DNA of 64,000 nucleotides from Gemmatimonas aurantiaca T-27 (GTDB lineage: Bacteria > Gemmatimonadota > Gemmatimonadetes > Gemmatimonadales > Gemmatimonadaceae): assembly GCF_000010305.1 (NCBI RefSeq), contig NC_012489.1:310001-374000 (forward strand), written 5' to 3'. This document shows, one piece after another, positions 9,848 through 62,850 of this stretch; the first letter of the stretch is position 1, and each line of letters opens with the position of its first letter. The translations under genes and the position numbers were made by a program. The notes under the pieces were generated by a model. The model worked only from the letters and a program-made list of their open reading frames with translations, did no database searches and was not told the DNA's origin.

Positions 9848-10707
9848 GTACCTCCACCATTCACGACCTCGGCTATCGTCGGTACGACGGCACGCGTGAA
9901 GGATGGACAGGGGCCTGGTCGGCGCTGTTCTGGCAGGGATTCCGCGGCATGTTCGGCATTGGACGCTCGTTGCGGGCGAAAGGCATTCCGGTGTTTGTGA
10001 TCGTGATGGCGTTGCTGCCCTGTCTGGCCACGGTGGCGGCTGCGGCGGTGTCGAATGGACAGGCCGCGATTCCGTACGGACTGCTGATCGGCTCGCAGTT
10101 GCTGCTGTTTGTGCTGTTCACGGCGGCGCAGGTACCGGAAGTGTTGTGCCGTGATCGACAGCATGGGGTGTTGCCGTTGTTGCTCACCCGGGCTCTCTCG
10201 CCACGTCAGTATGCGCTGGCGCGACTGGCGGCGGTGTGGATGGCCGTGTGGATCGTGGCAACCGCGCCATTGCTGGTGTTGTATGTGGGAGAGCTTTCGA
10301 TTGCGGCCGATCCGGCGGCACGATTTGCCGAAATTGGCGGGCGTCTGTGGCCCGTGTTGCTCTGCGGCACCATGAGCGCGTGGGTGATCGGCTCGTTGGC
10401 AGCGATGATGGCGAGCCTCACGGCACGACGTGGATATGCGTCGATGCTGGTGGTGGGGTTCTTCCTCGCGGTGGCGGCTGTGGCGATGGGCGCTGAAGAT
10501 CTTGCGGCGCTGCCGGATGTCGTGCGCGAATTCCTCGATCCGCTGCGCGCACTGCGTACGATGGCCATGCTGTTGTTTGGTGAAACGACGCGGGCCATGG
10601 AGCTCAATCCGCCGCCATCGGTGCCCGTGTTTGTGCTGGTGTTCATCGTGGTCGGTGCGTTGGCGTCGCTGGTGGCCATGCGTCGTCTCGAACGGGTGGA
10701 TGCATGA
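9844..10707 (+). CDS. ABC-2 type permease
   Basis: 287 residues from GTG 9844, overlapping the upstream stop (GTGA). After a soluble N-terminus (HDLGYRRYDGTREG) there are about six hydrophobic segments: PVFVIVMALLPCLATVAAAA, LLIGSQLLLFVLF, LAAVWMAVWIVATAPLLVLY, WPVLLCGTMSAWVIGSLAAM, MLVVGFFLAVAAVAM and VFVLVFIVVGALASLV. The motif GVLPLLLTRALSPRQYALARL between segments 2 and 3 is typical of ABC-2 membrane subunits. It probably pairs with the ATPase encoded upstream. Substrate unknown. Confidence 0.82.
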   Translation: MSTSTIHDLGYRRYDGTREGWTGAWSALFWQGFRGMFGIGRSLRAKGIPVFVIVMALLPCLATVAAAAVSNGQAAIPYGLLIGSQLLLFVLFTAAQVPEVLCRDRQHGVLPLLLTRALSPRQYALARLAAVWMAVWIVATAPLLVLYVGELSIAADPAARFAEIGGRLWPVLLCGTMSAWVIGSLAAMMASLTARRGYASMLVVGFFLAVAAVAMGAEDLAALPDVVREFLDPLRALRTMAMLLFGETTRAMELNPPPSVPVFVLVFIVVGALASLVAMRRLERVDA

Positions 10708-35887: not shown

Positions 35888-37174
35888 ATGTCCGCCCGCA
35901 TGCCTGTCCATGATGTCGATGTGACGCCGCCACCCACGGCGCAGCACGTCTTTATTGCCCGTCAACCGATCTTTGATCGGGCGCCGGATCGTGTGGCGTA
36001 CGAGTTGTTGTATCGCGCATCGCGTGAAGCGACGGCCGCGACGACCGACATGTCTCCCACGTTCATGTGCGGAGACACCGCCCTGCATGCGCTGCTGTCC
36101 ATCGGACTGGAACGGTTGACGGCCGGCACGAAGGCCTTCGTGAACATCACCGAAGATCACCTTCTGGGCGAACTCTACAAGATCTTCGATGCGCAGGCGG
36201 TCGTGCTGGAGCCGCTGGAGACCATCGACGGGTCGCCGGCCGTGGTGGACGCTTGCAAGCGGGCGGTGGCTGATGGCTACACGCTGGCGCTCGACGACTA
36301 CGATGGGCGCGTGTCCCTGGATCCGCTGCTGCCGCTGGCCACGATCGTGAAAGTGGATGTGCTGCCGCATACCAAGGCGGGAACACTCGAGCAGCTCGTT
36401 CCCCTCGTGGCTCGACTGAAGGGCATGGGACTCACGGTCCTGGCCGAACGGGTAGAGACGGCCGCGGAATTGGCGGCCTGTCGAGCGATGGGCTTCGATC
36501 TGTTCCAGGGATATGTGTTCAGTCGCCCTGAAACGCTCGACGGCCGGGCGGCCAATGTGCATCAGGCAGCGGTGTTCCAGATCGTGTCGATGCTGAATGA
36601 GCCACGGGTCACCGAATGGGATCTCGAGAACGCGTTCCGCGGTCATCCGTCGTTGTCGTTCACCCTGCTGCGCATCGTGAACTCGGCGTCATTCGGTGGG
36701 CGCAGTGTGGATTCCATTCCGCACGCCATCCGGTTGGTGGGTCGCGAGGCTCTGTCGCGTTGGATGATCATCATGCTGGTGGCATCGGTGGGTGCACAAA
36801 GTGCCGTGGCGCATGAAGCGGTGATGACGGCGCTGGTGCGTGGTCGTTTCTGCGAAGCGGTGAGTGCACATGCGGGGCACTCGGATCCGGCCGCGCGGTT
36901 CCTGGTGGGACTCCTGTCCCGCATGGACGTGCTGCTCGGTTTGCCCATGGACCAGGTGCTGGACCGGTTGCCCGTGAGCAAGGACGTGCGTGATGCGCTG
37001 CTGCGGGGCATCGGACCACATGCCGATGTGCTGCGTCTGGCCGATGCCTATGAACGGGCCGATTGGGAACAGGTGGAACAGGAAGTGCCGGGCATGCGGG
37101 CCGCATTCACCGAGTTGTACACGGAGTCGGTGATCTGGTCGGGGGATCGACTGGCGAGTGCTGCGCCACAGTAG
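35888..37174 (+). CDS. EAL-HDOD signalling protein
   Basis: 428 residues from ATG 35888. The N-terminal EAL-like domain opens with HVFIARQPIFDRAPDRVAYELLYR, where the catalytic Glu-Ala-Leu is replaced by Glu-Leu-Leu; LALDDYDGRVSLDPLLP, VKVDVLPHTK and VLAERVETAAELAACRAMGFDLFQGYVFSRP follow. The C-terminal HDOD domain has the conserved SLSFTLLRIVNSASFG and IRLVGREALSRW. Proteins of this CdgJ/YuxH type usually sense rather than cleave c-di-GMP and often affect motility. It sits next to the flagellar region, ended by a strong terminator. Confidence 0.9.
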   Translation: MSARMPVHDVDVTPPPTAQHVFIARQPIFDRAPDRVAYELLYRASREATAATTDMSPTFMCGDTALHALLSIGLERLTAGTKAFVNITEDHLLGELYKIFDAQAVVLEPLETIDGSPAVVDACKRAVADGYTLALDDYDGRVSLDPLLPLATIVKVDVLPHTKAGTLEQLVPLVARLKGMGLTVLAERVETAAELAACRAMGFDLFQGYVFSRPETLDGRAANVHQAAVFQIVSMLNEPRVTEWDLENAFRGHPSLSFTLLRIVNSASFGGRSVDSIPHAIRLVGREALSRWMIIMLVASVGAQSAVAHEAVMTALVRGRFCEAVSAHAGHSDPAARFLVGLLSRMDVLLGLPMDQVLDRLPVSKDVRDALLRGIGPHADVLRLADAYERADWEQVEQEVPGMRAAFTELYTESVIWSGDRLASAAPQ

Positions 37175-45525: not shown

Positions 45526-46230
45526 TTAGACGGGCTTGGCGAGGTCGGTCACGGCGATCCCGCGTACCGCATCGATGGTGGACAAGGTCTGCTGCGCGGC
45601 GCCGTAGCGATGCAGCACGGTCAGCATCTCGGTCATCGCCGACATCGGATTCACGTTCGATTCTTCAAGGAACCCCTGCTTCACCGTGCGTTCGGTGGGC
45701 GGGATGACCTGGCGTGAGGCGTCGGGAATGAAGCGGGTGCCACCTTCGTGCTCGAGATCGGTGCCGGATGCGACGCGTTCCACGCGAAGCCGCTGCTGGG
45801 GCTTCCCGTTCACGGTGATCAGGCCGGTGGCGTCGACTTCGATGGTTCCCTGCGGGAGGGAGATGGCGCCGTTTTCGCCGAGAACAGGGTTGCCCTGTTC
45901 GTCGGTGAGATGGCGGTTGGCATCGAGTCGGAAGTTGCCGTTGCGGACGAACCGCTCCCCGGCGGGCGTATCCACCACGAAGAACCCGTCCCCTTCGAGC
46001 GCGAGGTCGAGGGAGTTGTGGGTTTCGGTGAGGGTGCCGGGGGTGAGGTCGATGGCAGTGTCGGCCTTGGCCAGCTGGTTGCCCATCATGCGTGCGAACG
46101 TCGTCTCCGCCTTGAAGCCGCGGGTGGACGCGTTGGCGAGGTTGTTGGCGAGCACCTGCTGCTTCCGCTCCAGCATCTGGAGCGCGGAAGCGGCGCTGGA
46201 CAACCCATTGTTCTGAACGGGACCTGGCAT
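45526..46230 (-). CDS. flgF: Proximal rod protein FlgF
   Basis: 234 residues from ATG 46230. The rod-protein N-terminus (LQMLERKQQVLANNLANASTRGFKAETTF) and C-terminus (FLEESNVNPMSAMTEMLTVLHRYGAAQQTLSTID) are clear. The shorter middle fits FlgF rather than FlgG. First gene of the flgF-flgG-flgA-flgH-flgI-flgJ-flgN-flgK-csrA operon. It has a sigma-54-like promoter 43 bases upstream and a palindrome further upstream. Confidence 0.94.
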   Translation of the reverse strand: MPGPVQNNGLSSAASALQMLERKQQVLANNLANASTRGFKAETTFARMMGNQLAKADTAIDLTPGTLTETHNSLDLALEGDGFFVVDTPAGERFVRNGNFRLDANRHLTDEQGNPVLGENGAISLPQGTIEVDATGLITVNGKPQQRLRVERVASGTDLEHEGGTRFIPDASRQVIPPTERTVKQGFLEESNVNPMSAMTEMLTVLHRYGAAQQTLSTIDAVRGIAVTDLAKPV

Positions 46231-46272
46231 GTCGTGATCGGGATAGGGTGCACGAACTCACCAGGTGAGAAA

Positions 46273-46287
46273 GCAATGGGCGGGCCA
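46273..46287 (-). promoter_or_regulatory. Candidate sigma-54 (-24/-12) promoter of the flgF operon
   Basis: Read on the minus strand: TGGCCC-N5-TTGCT followed by TTC. The invariant GG and GC are exactly 10 bases apart, as the sigma-54 consensus TGGCAC-N5-TTGCW requires; one base of TGGCAC differs. The predicted start is about 46262, giving a leader of about 32 bases. The same layout is found before fliQ and fliL. Confidence 0.7.
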
Positions 46288-46349: not shown

Positions 46350-46401
46350 CGGAAAATCGTGCCGCTGGGTTTTGGGGCCGGACATGCGGCAATTCGTGCC
46401 G
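46350..46401 (-). promoter_or_regulatory. Candidate enhancer (UAS) of the flgF operon: CGGCA-N5-TGCCG
   Basis: A perfect copy of CGGCA-N5-TGCCG lies at 46387-46401. A partner with one changed half (CGGAA-N5-TGCCG) is at 46350-46364, 37 bases away. Both are within a region about 90-140 bases upstream of the predicted start, the usual place for sigma-54 enhancer-binding proteins. The same palindrome is present at 57391 and 62836. Confidence 0.65.
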
Positions 46402-46446
46402 GATGGGGGGTGTGGCGGCGGGAGTTGCCGGAGGGAGCGGGGCTGG

Positions 46447-51095: not shown

Positions 51096-51989
51096 TCAAA
51101 CACCGGAGCGAGAAAGGGGGCGGACAGTCAACGCGCGCGTCACGACATCGTGGGCGGCGACCGCTGCTGGCGACCCTGCTGCTGCATCTGCAAAGGTCAT
51201 GCCTTTGCGAAGTGCCGCATCAAGCGTCGGATCAGCAGGAATTGCGCCAGCGAGACGCAACGAAAGACCGAGGAACTGGCGGGCACCGGCGTCGATGGCG
51301 TCGAAGCAACGCGCTGCTTCGCTCCCTTCCAGTCGATTGACGAGCAGCTCCACCGGAAGGGCACCGTGTCGAGTGGCCACCGCCTTGCAGAGCGCGTACG
51401 TCGAAGCAAGACCAACAGGGTCAGCGCCGGAGGCAATCGCCACCAACCGCTCACCCGAGTGTGGTGTGATGGCCGCCAGCACCGACTCGAGTCGGGCACC
51501 GCAGTCAATCACGACCAAATCCATCCCTTCAGAGAGTGCACTGAGTCGACGCAGGCAGGCCTTTCGTTCCGCACTGGTCAACTGTGGCGCTCCTTCACCG
51601 GCAAGACGTGCCGCACCGCCTGCCACCAGGGTGAGCGTGGTGCTCACCGGGGTGGCCACATCGGCCGGCGATACACGACCGCCACGCAAGTCCTGCCAAC
51701 TGGCACGAGGTGTCACACCGAGGGTCATCGCCAGCGGTCCGACAAAATCGTCCGCGTCGATGAGCAGCACCCGATGCCCTTCACCGGCCGCCGCCACGGC
51801 AAGCAATGCCGAGATGAGTGTGGTGCCCGAACCGCCACGACCACTCGCGCAGAGCAGCGTGGTGGGGCCGATGGCATCACCGCTTCCCGTACGACGCGCC
51901 GCATACGCGGCTCCGCCGGCCAGCGCGTCGGCCTGCGAGCGATTCGACGAAGCGGACGACATGAGCGGAAGACTCATGCGGGCATCCAA
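51096..51989 (-). CDS. flhG: FlhG/MinD-like ATPase with altered P-loop
   Basis: 297 residues from ATG 51989 (overlaps the flhF stop). MinD-family context and sequence are clear: LLIDADDFVGPLAMTLGV (Walker A-prime Asp), MDLVVIDCGARLESVLAAITPHSGERLVAI and LLVNRLEGSEAARCFDAI. The deviant Walker A, normally KGGxGK(S/T), reads GRGGSGTT at residues 50-57, so both lysines are missing. FlhG works with FlhF in setting flagellar number. The loss suggests a protein that no longer hydrolyses ATP. Confidence 0.88.
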   Translation of the reverse strand: MDARMSLPLMSSASSNRSQADALAGGAAYAARRTGSGDAIGPTTLLCASGRGGSGTTLISALLAVAAAGEGHRVLLIDADDFVGPLAMTLGVTPRASWQDLRGGRVSPADVATPVSTTLTLVAGGAARLAGEGAPQLTSAERKACLRRLSALSEGMDLVVIDCGARLESVLAAITPHSGERLVAIASGADPVGLASTYALCKAVATRHGALPVELLVNRLEGSEAARCFDAIDAGARQFLGLSLRLAGAIPADPTLDAALRKGMTFADAAAGSPAAVAAHDVVTRALTVRPLSRSGV

Positions 51990-52852: not shown

Positions 52853-54932
52853 TGGACATCTCCCAGGTGGTCACGCTGCTGAGCGTGATTTGCGCGGGCA
52901 GTTCCGCGAGTGAAATCACCGGCAGGCTCGGGAGCACAGGTTCGATGAGGCGCCGCACGCCCACGCGCAACGACGGCGGGGTGATGAGCGGCAACGGACG
53001 GCCATCCACGGCGTACGTGGTGGCGAGATGATTGAGGTCGCGCAGCATGGCAGCCAACGATTCCGGCGTGAGCATCGGTGCGTTCGGCTGCGACGAGCGC
53101 GGCGAGAACAATCCGACGAGTGCCGATTCGAGACGACCACCGATGGTGATGCCACGCACCGTACCGGTCTGGTCGGCGAACAACCGCGCAATGACGTTGG
53201 TGAGGGCCCGGCGCGCCACTTCGGTGAGCGCTTCGGGATCGCGCGTGGACTCCGCACCGTCGCCCAACGCTTCGAGGATCGTGACGAGATCGCGAATGGG
53301 CACACGCTCGCGCAGCAGACGCTGCAACACACGGTGCAACACACTGAGCGACACCTTGCCCGGGATGATTTCTTCCACGAGTGCGGGGTGCGACTTCTTG
53401 AGCGTCTCGACCATCTCCTGCACTTCCTGACGACCGAGCAGTTCGGAGGCGCTGAGCTTGAGCGTTTCGAGCAGATGCGTGGCGACCACCGTGGTGGGTT
53501 CCACCACCACGTAGCCAAGGGCCTCCGCTTCCGTGCGGCGGGCCGACGCCACCCAGCGCGCGGGCATCCCAAATGACGGATCCACGGTCTCCATCCCGTC
53601 GATCTCAGCCACCACACTGCCGGTGTTGAGCGCCATCAGAAAGCGCGGCAGCACTTCGGCGCGCGCCACTTCGGAGCCACGCAGCTTGATGACGTATTCG
53701 TTGGCCGGCAGCCGGATGTCGTCGCGAATGCGGATGGCCGGGATGAGAATGCCGAGTTCGAGTGCGGCCTGCTTGCGCAGCAGCGAGATGCGTTCGAGCA
53801 GGTCGCCGCCCTGGCCTTCGTCGATGAGCGGGATGAGCGCGTAACCCACTTCGAGTTCGATGGGATCGATCTGCAGCAGATCGCGCATCGGATCGGGCGG
53901 TGGCGGCAATTCTTCCATTTCCACCGGTGCGCTGATCGTCGCCAGTTCCAGGCGACGCGTCTCGGCCTTGGTCGCGGTGCGCGCCAGCAGCGCGGCACCG
54001 GCAGCCATGGCCAGGAACGGAAACATCGGCAAGCCGGGGATGAGCGCGAACGAACCGAGCACGCCGGCAGCGACCCACATCGCGCGCGGGTGATTGCCGA
54101 GCTGTTTGCTCAGCACCGCGCCCATCTTGTCGTTGTTGGTGGCGGCCGTGACCATGAGGCCGGCCGCGGTGCTGATGATCAGTGCCGGCACCTGCGTGAC
54201 GAGGCCGTCACCCACCGTGAGGATGGTGTAGGTGCTCGCGGCCTTGCCGATCTCCATGCCACGCTGGATGACACCGATGAAGATGCCGCCCACAATGTTG
54301 ACGATGACGACGAGAATGCCGAGGATCGCGTCGCCCTTCACGTACTTGGAGGCGCCGTCCATGGCGCCGTAGAAGTCGGCGGTGCGCGCGATTTCGTCGC
54401 GGCGCGTGCGAGCTTCCTTTTCGTCGATCAGGCCGGCCGACAGATCGGCGTCGATCGCCATCTGCTTGCCGGGCATCGCATCGAGGGTGAAGCGCGCGGC
54501 CACTTCCGCGATGCGCCCGGCACCCTTGGTGATGACGATGAAATTGATGCCGGTCAGGATCAGGAAGATGACAATACCGACCGCATAGTTGCCGCCGATG
54601 ACGAACTGACCGAAGGCTTCAATGACCTTGCCGGCGTGCGCCTCGGAGAGAATCAGACGTGTCGACGACACGCTGAGCCCCATGCGGAAGAGCGTCAGCA
54701 GGAGCAGCAGCGCCGGAAAACTGCTGAAATCGAGCGGGTTGGTGGTCTGCAACGAGACCAGCAGTACCACCAGCGACAGTCCGATGCTCGCCGCGAGGCA
54801 GAGATCGAGCAGCACCGGCGGCAGGGGTACCACGATAAGGGCGATGAACAGCACCACCACCAGGGCAATGGCGATTTCCGCCTTCTTTGCCCCGGCAGAA
54901 TTTGCCGGAATCGGGAGCGCAGCGCTGGTCAT
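52845..54932 (-). CDS. flhA: Flagellar export gate protein FlhA
   Basis: 695 residues. About eight membrane segments in the N-terminal half carry the FHIPEP-family signature (GINFIVITKGAGRIAEVAARFTLDAMPGKQMAIDADLSAGLIDE). The C-terminal cytoplasmic half docks chaperone-substrate complexes (VEPTTVVATHLLETLKLSASELLGRQEVQEMVETLKKSHPALVEE). Core of the type III export gate; downstream of flhB in the fliQ operon. Confidence 0.97.
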   Translation of the reverse strand: MTSAALPIPANSAGAKKAEIAIALVVVLFIALIVVPLPPVLLDLCLAASIGLSLVVLLVSLQTTNPLDFSSFPALLLLLTLFRMGLSVSSTRLILSEAHAGKVIEAFGQFVIGGNYAVGIVIFLILTGINFIVITKGAGRIAEVAARFTLDAMPGKQMAIDADLSAGLIDEKEARTRRDEIARTADFYGAMDGASKYVKGDAILGILVVIVNIVGGIFIGVIQRGMEIGKAASTYTILTVGDGLVTQVPALIISTAAGLMVTAATNNDKMGAVLSKQLGNHPRAMWVAAGVLGSFALIPGLPMFPFLAMAAGAALLARTATKAETRRLELATISAPVEMEELPPPPDPMRDLLQIDPIELEVGYALIPLIDEGQGGDLLERISLLRKQAALELGILIPAIRIRDDIRLPANEYVIKLRGSEVARAEVLPRFLMALNTGSVVAEIDGMETVDPSFGMPARWVASARRTEAEALGYVVVEPTTVVATHLLETLKLSASELLGRQEVQEMVETLKKSHPALVEEIIPGKVSLSVLHRVLQRLLRERVPIRDLVTILEALGDGAESTRDPEALTEVARRALTNVIARLFADQTGTVRGITIGGRLESALVGLFSPRSSQPNAPMLTPESLAAMLRDLNHLATTYAVDGRPLPLITPPSLRVGVRRLIEPVLPSLPVISLAELPAQITLSSVTTWEMSNG

Positions 54933-56968: not shown

Positions 56969-57238
56969 TCAGCCGACCATCGCGGGAATGCCGCGAATGA
57001 TCTGGGTGGTGAACTTGATCATGATCTGCATCAGCCAGGGCAGGCCGACGATGAAGGCACCGCCGACCAAGATGAGCTTGGGCACAAAGACCAGCGTCTG
57101 CTCCTGGATCTGAGTGACCGACTGGATGATCGCGATGATGAGACCGACCCCGAGCGCCAGCAGGAGCAGCGGCGCCGAGACCATGAGGGCGGTCATGATG
57201 GCGTCGCGGGTCAGGTCGATGACGATCTGGTGTGACAA
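56969..57238 (-). CDS. fliQ: Flagellar export gate protein FliQ
   Basis: 89 residues from TTG 57238, the standard FliQ length; longer frames upstream have no homologous sequence. Two membrane helices are visible in LTRDAIMTALMVSAPLLLLALGVGLIIAIIQSVTQIQEQTLVFVPKLILVGGAFIVGLPW. Part of the FliPQR export channel. First gene of the eight-gene operon that ends in fliA and a hypothetical. The 362 bases upstream, up to the divergent gene at 57601, contain only control elements. Confidence 0.93.
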   Translation of the reverse strand: MSHQIVIDLTRDAIMTALMVSAPLLLLALGVGLIIAIIQSVTQIQEQTLVFVPKLILVGGAFIVGLPWLMQIMIKFTTQIIRGIPAMVG

Positions 57239-57287
57239 GGCGGTGGCCTGGGTTCGGGGACGTACGCGATTGGCGATGTAGGTGAAA

Positions 57288-57302
57288 GCAAGGGAGGGGC
57301 CA
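57288..57302 (-). promoter_or_regulatory. Candidate sigma-54 (-24/-12) promoter of the fliQ operon
   Basis: Minus strand: TGGCCC-N5-TTGCT followed by TTC. GG and GC are exactly 10 bases apart. Predicted start near 57277, leader about 39 bases. It is nearly the same sequence as the flgF element (TGGCCC-N5-TTGCTTTC in both), although the genes are unrelated. Confidence 0.7.
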
Positions 57303-57390: not shown

Positions 57391-57405
57391 CGGCAAAAAA
57401 TGCCG
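57391..57405 (-). promoter_or_regulatory. Candidate enhancer (UAS) of the fliQ operon: CGGCA-N5-TGCCG
   Basis: Perfect inverted repeat CGGCA-AAAAA-TGCCG, about 115-128 bases upstream of the predicted start. It matches the palindromes before flgF and fliL in sequence and spacer length. Confidence 0.65.
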
Positions 57406-57600: not shown

Positions 57601-58467
57601 ATGGTCGGAAGCATTGGTGCCTGGTCGCGAGGCCGGCTTTTGCTGGGAACGCTGGTCATCGTGCTCGCGATGTTGTCCGGGCCGGCGCATGCCGTCGGCG
57701 GGCTGATGGACGCTCAGGAATCCCCGGCCGGGTCACCGGCGCCGGCGGGCGATGCCAAGCTCGGAGCATTGGTGCTTCACATCGTGAATGCAGCCGGTGC
57801 GCCGGTGGCGTCGGCCGAAGTCACGCTACGTGGTGAGAAGAAGCAGGATTTTGTACAGCGCACCGATACGGCCGGCCGTGCCGTCTTTGCCGATCTCGCG
57901 CCGGGTTTCTGGGTCGCGGGTGTTCGGCGACTCGGCCTCAAGCCGGTCAGTGGAAGTCTGCGCGTGGGTGCCGGGCAAAACGCCTACACCATGCGAGTCG
58001 AAGACGAGGCGATGACCCTTGTGGGTGTGCGGGTCATGGGCGGCCGCGACTACTCGCCGCGTCTCTACGATTTCGAGCGACGACGGTTGGCCGGATTGCC
58101 CAGTGCCGTGGTCACGCAGGAGCAGATCGATCGGCTTGGACCGGTCCACATCTCACGCATGCTGCGTGGCATGTCAGGGCTGCGCATTGGTGACTCGTCA
58201 GGCGTGACGGTGGCCATTTCGACGCGGGGCATGAAACCATCGCGGCCGCTGCGAGGGGCGGCGCCGTTCGGTCTGGTGCAGTGTGTGATGCGGGTGTCGG
58301 TCGACGGGATCATCCTGCCGGCGCTCACCAACATCGACCAGATCGTGCCGAAGGATGTACATGGCATCGAGGTGTACTACGGACCGGCGCGCATGCCGCC
58401 GGAGCTCGAGGGGATGCGCACGGACAATTGGTGCGGATTGATTGCGATCTGGACGCGGGATCGGTAG
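57601..58467 (+). CDS. Exported protein with carboxypeptidase-regulatory-like and TonB plug domains
   Basis: 288 residues from ATG 57601 (TTG 57583 upstream is in frame), with a signal peptide (LLLGTLVIVLAMLSGPAHA). Residues 50-130 form a CarboxypepD_reg-like beta-sandwich (LHIVNAAGAPVASAEVTLRGE ... LAPGFWVAGVRRLG). Residues 175-285 resemble a TonB-receptor plug (RLGPVHISRMLRGMSGLRIGDSSGV, VDGIILP, IVPKDVHGIEVYYGPARMPPELEG). The beta-barrel that normally follows is absent. It stands alone, divergent from fliQ. Confidence 0.78.
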   Translation: MVGSIGAWSRGRLLLGTLVIVLAMLSGPAHAVGGLMDAQESPAGSPAPAGDAKLGALVLHIVNAAGAPVASAEVTLRGEKKQDFVQRTDTAGRAVFADLAPGFWVAGVRRLGLKPVSGSLRVGAGQNAYTMRVEDEAMTLVGVRVMGGRDYSPRLYDFERRRLAGLPSAVVTQEQIDRLGPVHISRMLRGMSGLRIGDSSGVTVAISTRGMKPSRPLRGAAPFGLVQCVMRVSVDGIILPALTNIDQIVPKDVHGIEVYYGPARMPPELEGMRTDNWCGLIAIWTRDR

Positions 58468-62080: not shown

Positions 62081-62650
62081 TTACTGCACGACGAACTGCG
62101 GGAAGTAGAGGCGCTTCACGGTCTGTTTGCCGAAGCGGCCATCCACCGCGGCCTGCAACTCTGTCTTGAAGATTTCGCGCTTCGAGATGTCCGTGAGCTC
62201 GTCCACCGTCTTGGTGCCCAATGCGGTCAGGATGATGTCGCGCAACTCGGCGTCGCGGGCCTTGAACTGCTCGAGCGCCGTAGCCTTGCCGGCCTCGATG
62301 GCGACGGACAGCAGGAGGAAGCGGCTGCCACCGCTACCCGCCGGATTGAGGACCAGGTTCTCCAGAAGCAGCACCGAAGCCGCTGCGCCTGCTTCCTTGC
62401 CTTCCGCGCCACCGTGTTCGCCACCAGCGGCTGCCTCTCCATGCTCGCCCTCGGCGCCTTCTGCGCCGCTGTCGGCGTGGGCGGCCGCGACGATGGGCGT
62501 GGTCTTGCCCATCTTCTTGGCGACCATCGGACCGAGGAGGGCGGCACCCGTGCCGCCACCAACAGCGAGGCCGACCGCCACCATGCCGATCAGGATCGGC
62601 AACTTGGGCTTGGACGGGGCGGCTTCGGCTTGGGGCTGTTCGCTGGACAT
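62081..62650 (-). CDS. fliL: Flagellar basal-body-associated protein FliL
   Basis: 189 residues from ATG 62650; an in-frame ATG at 62740 would read through the sigma-54-like element and is less likely. One membrane segment (LPILIGMVAVGLAVGGGTGAALL), then a Gly/Glu/His-rich spacer (EGAEGEHGEAAAGGEHGG), then the FliL periplasmic domain (VLLLENLVLNPAGSGGSRFLLLSVAIEA, LRDIILTALGTKTVDELTD, VKRLYFPQFVVQ). FliL stabilises the stators around the motor. First gene of the fliL-fliM-fliN-fliOP operon. Confidence 0.92.
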   Translation of the reverse strand: MSSEQPQAEAAPSKPKLPILIGMVAVGLAVGGGTGAALLGPMVAKKMGKTTPIVAAAHADSGAEGAEGEHGEAAAGGEHGGAEGKEAGAAASVLLLENLVLNPAGSGGSRFLLLSVAIEAGKATALEQFKARDAELRDIILTALGTKTVDELTDISKREIFKTELQAAVDGRFGKQTVKRLYFPQFVVQ

Positions 62651-62690
62651 AGAGAAGGCGGAAGAAGTGAATTCGACGCCATAGGGAAAA

Positions 62691-62705
62691 GCACTCCTCA
62701 TGCCA
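62691..62705 (-). promoter_or_regulatory. Candidate sigma-54 (-24/-12) promoter of the fliL operon
   Basis: Minus strand: TGGCAT-N5-GTGCT followed by TTT. GG and GC are 10 bases apart; two positions differ from the consensus, so it is the weakest of the three. Predicted start near 62680, leader about 30 bases. An inverted repeat AAACACC (62735-62741) / GGTGTTT (62760-62766) lies just upstream. Confidence 0.6.
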
Positions 62706-62806: not shown

Positions 62807-62850
62807 CGGCAAATACTGGCAGAACCGGCAATTTCCGGCAGAAAGTGCCG
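62807..62850 (-). promoter_or_regulatory. Candidate enhancer (UAS) cluster of the fliL operon
   Basis: CGGCA half-sites at 62807, 62817 (as TGGCA), 62826 and 62836 are spaced 10, 9 and 10 bases apart. The last pairs with TGCCG at 62846-62850 to give the perfect palindrome CGGCA-N5-TGCCG. The spacing equals about one turn of DNA, so the sites lie on one face. The whole cluster is about 127-170 bases upstream of the predicted start. Confidence 0.65.

Follow-up and report, generated by a model that had tools for sequence, protein, structure and literature searches.

A predicted FlbD-type enhancer site upstream of flagellar operons in Gemmatimonas aurantiaca T-27

We examined the palindrome CGGCA-N5-TGCCG, which lies upstream of several flagellar operons in Gemmatimonas aurantiaca T-27, and we are highly confident in the prediction that it serves a FlbD-family sigma54 activator as its upstream enhancer (ftr-type site), the activator gene being part of the same flagellar cluster. 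In this member of the Gemmatimonadota, it very probably acts as the DNA switch for FlbD-type activation of flagellar operons. The site is already known from Caulobacter; comparative genomics identifies it here in a distant phylum. A sequence-only reading had attributed the palindrome to an enhancer-binding activator of the FlbD/FlrC kind, and this attribution is supported by a cluster-encoded activator with an FlbD-like recognition helix, an rpoN gene, sigma54 elements, conservation in relatives, and agreement with the Caulobacter core.

Palindrome copies and sigma54 promoters

The window is the whole stretch of DNA that was analyzed (64 kb, C1:310001-374000), and genome-wide counts refer to the single 4,636,964-bp contig, C1. 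We detected nine exact copies of the palindrome in the window, compared to a mean of 0.42 and a maximum of 3 in dinucleotide shuffles; the earlier estimate of approximately 0.2 chance copies per 64 kb was of the right order. The sequence-only reading had named three copies (46387-46401, 57391-57405, and 62836-62850), all of which are perfect, but its list was incomplete: six more, at window positions 10316, 27352, 35310, 51599, 51797, and 54893, are within coding sequence or next to it. The three named copies are intergenic and are the window copies that have both a sigma54 promoter and conservation in relatives. Their claimed distance of 153 to 186 bases from the first start codon was borne out, with 156 bases for flgF (start at 46230), 152 for fliQ (57238), and 185 for fliL (62650). 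We set the fliL start at 62650 because the promoter lies just upstream. Genes in the cluster were named from translations read by eye and gene order, with Pfam for tested genes. The three promoter regions contain the following features, in window coordinates:

46416..46430, minus strand: third flgF-promoter site, one mismatch
46387..46401, minus strand: predicted ftr/FlbD-type site before flgF, exact; centre 108.5 bp upstream of the -24 GG
46350..46364, minus strand: second flgF-promoter site, one mismatch
46272..46287, minus strand: sigma54 -24/-12 element TGGCCCGCCCATTGCT, predicted promoter of flgF-flgG-flgA-flgH-flgI
45526..46230, minus strand: flgF, first gene of its operon (Pfam FlgE/F/G and rod-protein domains)
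57391..57405, minus strand: predicted ftr/FlbD-type site before fliQ, exact
57287..57302, minus strand: sigma54 -24/-12 element TGGCCCCTCCCTTGCT, predicted promoter of fliQ-fliR-flhB-flhA-flhF-flhG-fliA
56969..57238, minus strand: fliQ (89 aa), first gene of its operon, by gene call and translation; followed by fliR, flhB, and flhA
62836..62850, minus strand: predicted ftr/FlbD-type site before fliL, exact
62690..62705, minus strand: sigma54 -24/-12 element TGGCATGAGGAGTGCT, predicted promoter of fliL-fliM-fliN-fliOP
62081..62650, minus strand: fliL, first gene of its operon (Pfam FliL, E 1.5e-14)

A gene at 57640-58467 (plus strand), encoding a small protein with carboxypeptidase-regulatory and TonB plug domains, is divergent from fliQ and has a common upstream region with it.

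At flgF, fliQ, and fliL, the site lies 98 to 140 bp upstream of a sigma54 -24/-12 element that faces the flagellar operon. Six intergenic exact copies lie 80 to 205 bp upstream of a sigma54 element, namely those before flgF, fliQ, fliL, flgB, and two glycosylation-type operons, which ties the site to the sigma54 promoters of flagellar genes, as for ftr elements. Measured from the centre of a site to the -24 GG, the spacing ranges from 71 to 203 bp. The flgB element is a 16-mer identical to that of flgF, and two more of the six key-site promoters are these:

C1:394557: sigma54 element TGGCTCGGTTTTTGCT
C1:402395: sigma54 element TGGCACAGTTAATGCT

We scored sigma54 elements against the consensus with hand-set weights. 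The six key elements score 19.2 to 20.2; random 450-base stretches give best scores with a 95th percentile of 18.7 and a 99th of 19.7. The key elements are among the strongest in the region, and each is located between its site and its gene. Compared to the strict sequence TGGCAC-N5-TTGCA, the T-27 promoters differ at one to three places.

The palindrome signal is local, not genome-wide. The proposed search of the whole genome gave little signal, with 41 exact copies versus 30 for the reversed control pattern, but a local excess in the flagellar region did hold: C1:345000-409000 (64 kb) contains 12 exact copies, and 389 control palindromes (permuted arms and other spacers) average 0.49 there, with a maximum of 3. 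The 27 of the 41 copies that lie outside the flagellar region are at background level, and none of them is intergenic with a sigma54 promoter in the right arrangement. We therefore claim no wider regulon of distant targets. Counting the bare palindrome over whole genomes was uninformative as a test of enrichment, the count being near or below control both in T-27 and across 297 Gemmatimonadota genomes.

Five exact copies are found inside flagellar genes (flhG twice, flhA, fliK, and fliH), compared to approximately 0.4 expected in the region (Poisson P 7e-5). Two features of the window are relevant here:

51096..51989, minus strand: flhG, with two exact copies (51599 and 51797) 500 to 700 bp upstream of fliA
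54893..54907, minus strand: exact copy within the start of flhA

The copies inside fliK and fliH are at C1:376133-376165 and 380716, the in-gene set being exact apart from one with one mismatch. Sigma54-like elements occur at C1:361189, upstream of fliA, and at C1:364946, beside the flhA copy. As conserved internal enhancers, the in-gene copies were rejected, given that they are not kept in relatives of the same genus; they may be strain-specific auxiliary sites, or they may have drifted in.

The cluster-encoded activator

The earlier observation that the window contains no activator gene is correct; the flagellar cluster continues past the window end, and the gene is found 12 kb beyond it:

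C1:385631-387094: FlbD/FlrC-type activator gene (flbD homologue), between flgB and flgL in the same flagellar cluster
Cluster operons: flgB-flgC-fliE-fliF-fliG-fliH-fliI-fliJ-fliK-flgD-flgE; fliL-fliM-fliN-fliOP; fliQ-fliR-flhB-flhA-flhF-flhG-fliA; flgF-flgG-flgA-flgH-flgI

In Pfam, the FlbD homologue has a receiver, a sigma54-interaction domain, a lid, and a Fis-type helix-turn-helix, and its sigma54-interaction AAA+ domain contains the GAFTGA loop, consistent with NtrC-like architecture. Its location within the flagellar cluster is that of a FlbD/FlrC-type activator, and the placement between flgB and flgL is kept in most relatives. The genome has one rpoN gene and approximately eleven further genes with a good match to the sigma54-activator domain; in this cluster, we saw no second flagellar activator gene. 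Between flbD and flgL there is a site with one mismatch, which suggests that the activator controls flgL and also its own gene. Searching for sigma28 promoters before fliC, cheA, flgL, and others returned weak matches only.

The published Caulobacter FlbD site is CCCGGCA-N5-TGCCGGG, attributed to Wu et al. 1995 in PMC3333781. CGGCA-N5-TGCCG is the core of the Caulobacter site with an identical spacer; the outer CC/GG is weakly kept in Gemmatimonadota sites. We scanned 84,980 genomes for the site followed after 70 to 100 bases by TGGCMC-N5-TTGCW, resulting in at least 120 loci. The matches listed (at least 120) are mostly from Alphaproteobacteria (Caulobacter, Asticcacaulis, Brevundimonas, Bradyrhizobium, Paramagnetospirillum, and others), and also include some from Accumulibacter and Thiobacillus and several from Gemmatimonadota. 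By a hand count for this pattern alone, approximately 63 of the 120 matches listed are followed downstream by a correctly oriented flagellar structural gene.

The recognition helix of the T-27 activator reads SVRTLRNKL, compared to SIRTLRNKL in FlbD of Brevundimonas, Asticcacaulis, and Paramagnetospirillum, and this helix is absent from the other activators found in the T-27 genome. In our tree, the sister group of Gemmatimonadota FlbD consists of alphaproteobacterial FlbD together with two FlrC-like proteins from Betaproteobacteria, a relationship with only moderate support (92/76). The other T-27 activators that we placed fall apart from the FlbD group, one of them (L052), which has a long branch, next to it.

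We propose that an activator dimer would bind each palindrome via its Fis-type helix-turn-helix, and that the frequent occurrence of sites in twos or threes may aid ring assembly of the AAA+ domains. The DNA would then loop so that the activator ring touches sigma54-RNA polymerase at a -24/-12 promoter approximately 70 to 200 bp downstream, where ATP hydrolysis would open the promoter. We predict as targets the operons that begin with flgB, fliL, fliQ, and flgF and the two glycosylation-type operons; the fliQ operon ends in fliA, the sigma28 gene, which would be reached through it. In this model, the direction of control and its dependence on phosphorylation are, like binding, looping, and activation, predictions from sequence.

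Three other parts of the flagellar and chemotaxis gene content deserve mention. A 224-aa histidine kinase (C1:416586-417260, minus strand; HisKA and HATPase_c, without a sensor domain) adjoins chemotaxis genes and is a possible partner for the FlbD receiver. Adjoining motAB is a gene for an EAL-HDOD protein (window 35888-37174, plus strand), and a similar-looking protein is encoded at C1:302175-303413. Beyond the window, a glycosylation-type block (C1:389100-404056) within the flagellar cluster encodes a family-41 glycosyltransferase, a TPR-GT9 protein, a GFO/IDH oxidoreductase, a DegT-like protein, and relatives of LuxC and LuxE. Because two operons of this block have an FlbD-type site and a sigma54 promoter, the arrangement suggests flagellin modification under flagellar control.

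Conservation in relatives and alternative explanations

An flbD orthologue (E <= 1e-150) is present in 88 of 297 Gemmatimonadota genomes. We analyzed regions from 43 loci of relatives and scored a gene as having a site when one occurred, with no more than one mismatch, in the 400 bases before it. Sites were detected upstream of fliL in 21/22, flgB in 28/35, flgF in 15/20, and fliQ in 9/20, and, among further genes, upstream of flgL in 13/34 and fliA in 7/25. Control genes almost never have one (flgE 0/22, fliD 0/21, flgK 1/20, motA 1/16, flhB 1/20, flgG 2/20, and flhF 1/15). When 329 control palindromes were applied to the fliL, flgB, flgF, and fliQ upstream sets, they occurred in a mean of 0.6 to 1.1 genomes, with a maximum of 8. 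The comparison with related genomes thus favored the earlier proposal, with sites at the same place before flagellar operons.

In eight relatives, an exact site lies at -161 to -181 from fliQ, and all eight also have a strong sigma54 element in front of fliQ; almost every relative without the fliQ site is also without such an element. This paired absence fits a fliQ that does not head an operon in those relatives. Across 101 sites, whose collection at no more than one mismatch biases the set towards the pattern, the arms hardly vary at their inner positions, TTCCG is a common right-arm variant, and the spacer is free, leaning to A at its start and to T or C at its end. Some relatives (L105 and L109-L112) have an flbD-like gene directly before fliA, with a site approximately 60 to 220 bases upstream of fliA; in one genome, this gene is a second copy.

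GC-rich palindromes or hairpins, such as terminators and repeats, might simply occur by chance near flagellar operons, and the modest genome-wide count (41 versus 30), together with many relatives that have fewer copies genome-wide than control, would be consistent with this. We consider this explanation practically negligible given the strong local excess, the conservation at specific positions before four operons, seen in several families of the phylum and with spacers that vary, the few sites before control genes, and the coupling to sigma54 elements; in addition, the arms of the three sites are not followed by a T-run. A genuine operator could instead belong to a different regulator, either a repressor or one of the approximately eleven other sigma54-activator-domain genes, and not to the FlbD homologue. 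This is very unlikely, considering that the site matches the Caulobacter FlbD core as given in PMC3333781, that the cluster-encoded protein is the only T-27 activator found with the FlbD recognition helix, and that the sites go together with sigma54 promoters and do so only in the flagellar region.

It is also conceivable that FlbD binds these sites but mainly represses the early operons while another factor activates them, for which there is a precedent in Caulobacter, where FlbD represses at ftr4 before fliF (PMC3930126). We regard this as extremely unlikely here: the sites are mostly 70 to 200 bp upstream of the sigma54 element, an activating geometry, and do not overlap it; every target has a sigma54 promoter, which is unable to fire without an activator; and the cluster showed no other gene for a flagellar activator. 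Activation by FlbD from upstream enhancers is our preferred reading.

Comparison with known flagellar regulators

FlbD of Gemmatimonadota and the FlbD/ftr system of Caulobacter crescentus are alike in the site core, sigma54 promoters, basal-body targets, and an almost identical recognition helix. The two differ in signal input. The receiver of Gemmatimonadota FlbD is canonical, retaining the acidic pair, D52, T, and K, whereas the alphaproteobacterial FlbD proteins examined have lost the pair, T, and K. FliX (PF10768) was not found in the T-27 genome with a search that detected the Caulobacter control, and it was rejected as a partner of FlbD; of FliX and the degenerate receiver, both features of the Caulobacter system, T-27 has neither. 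The presence of fliA, the sigma28 gene, is a further difference.

FlrC, FleR, and FlgR likewise combine a receiver, AAA+ domain, and Fis-type helix-turn-helix and are sigma54 activators of basal-body and hook genes, but T-27 flbD does not have an adjoining partner kinase gene. In their own cascades, FlrC and FleR are subordinate to FlrA and FleQ, whereas the T-27 cluster has no second flagellar activator that we could see. The FlbD homologue DVU1063 of Desulfovibrio vulgaris is also a flagellar sigma54 regulator and has related half-sites, GGCA/TGCC, in its site GGCA-N4-TGCC (PMC3333781); it differs in spacing (N4 versus N5 here) and in its atypical receiver, compared to the intact receiver here.

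Early flagellar genes of Caulobacter are activated by CtrA (PMC3930126), whereas the early operons here (flgB to fliK, fliL, and fliQ) have sites and sigma54 promoters. From this difference, we infer that FlbD probably heads the flagellar cascade here and that fliA, as part of the fliQ operon, comes below it. A fuller version, which we put forward tentatively and with some doubt, is that a phosphorylation-competent FlbD would be the top-tier activator of the MS-ring/C-ring, export, and rod operons, and of fliA via the fliQ operon, using the Caulobacter site without FliX and without CtrA-like or FleQ-like control above it. If this is true, an older two-component flagellar switch would have given rise to the Caulobacter FlbD/FliX system, with its degenerate receiver, as a derived form.

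In the literature that we searched, no flagellar transcription regulator is described for Gemmatimonadota. The regulon of approximately six operons proposed here, with a named activator, sites, and promoters, is testable. Our comparison points to an FlbD site that has hardly changed between Gemmatimonadota and Alphaproteobacteria and to a difference in the signal-input part of the activator, and the origin of the unusual FliX-controlled Caulobacter system is now open to comparative tests.
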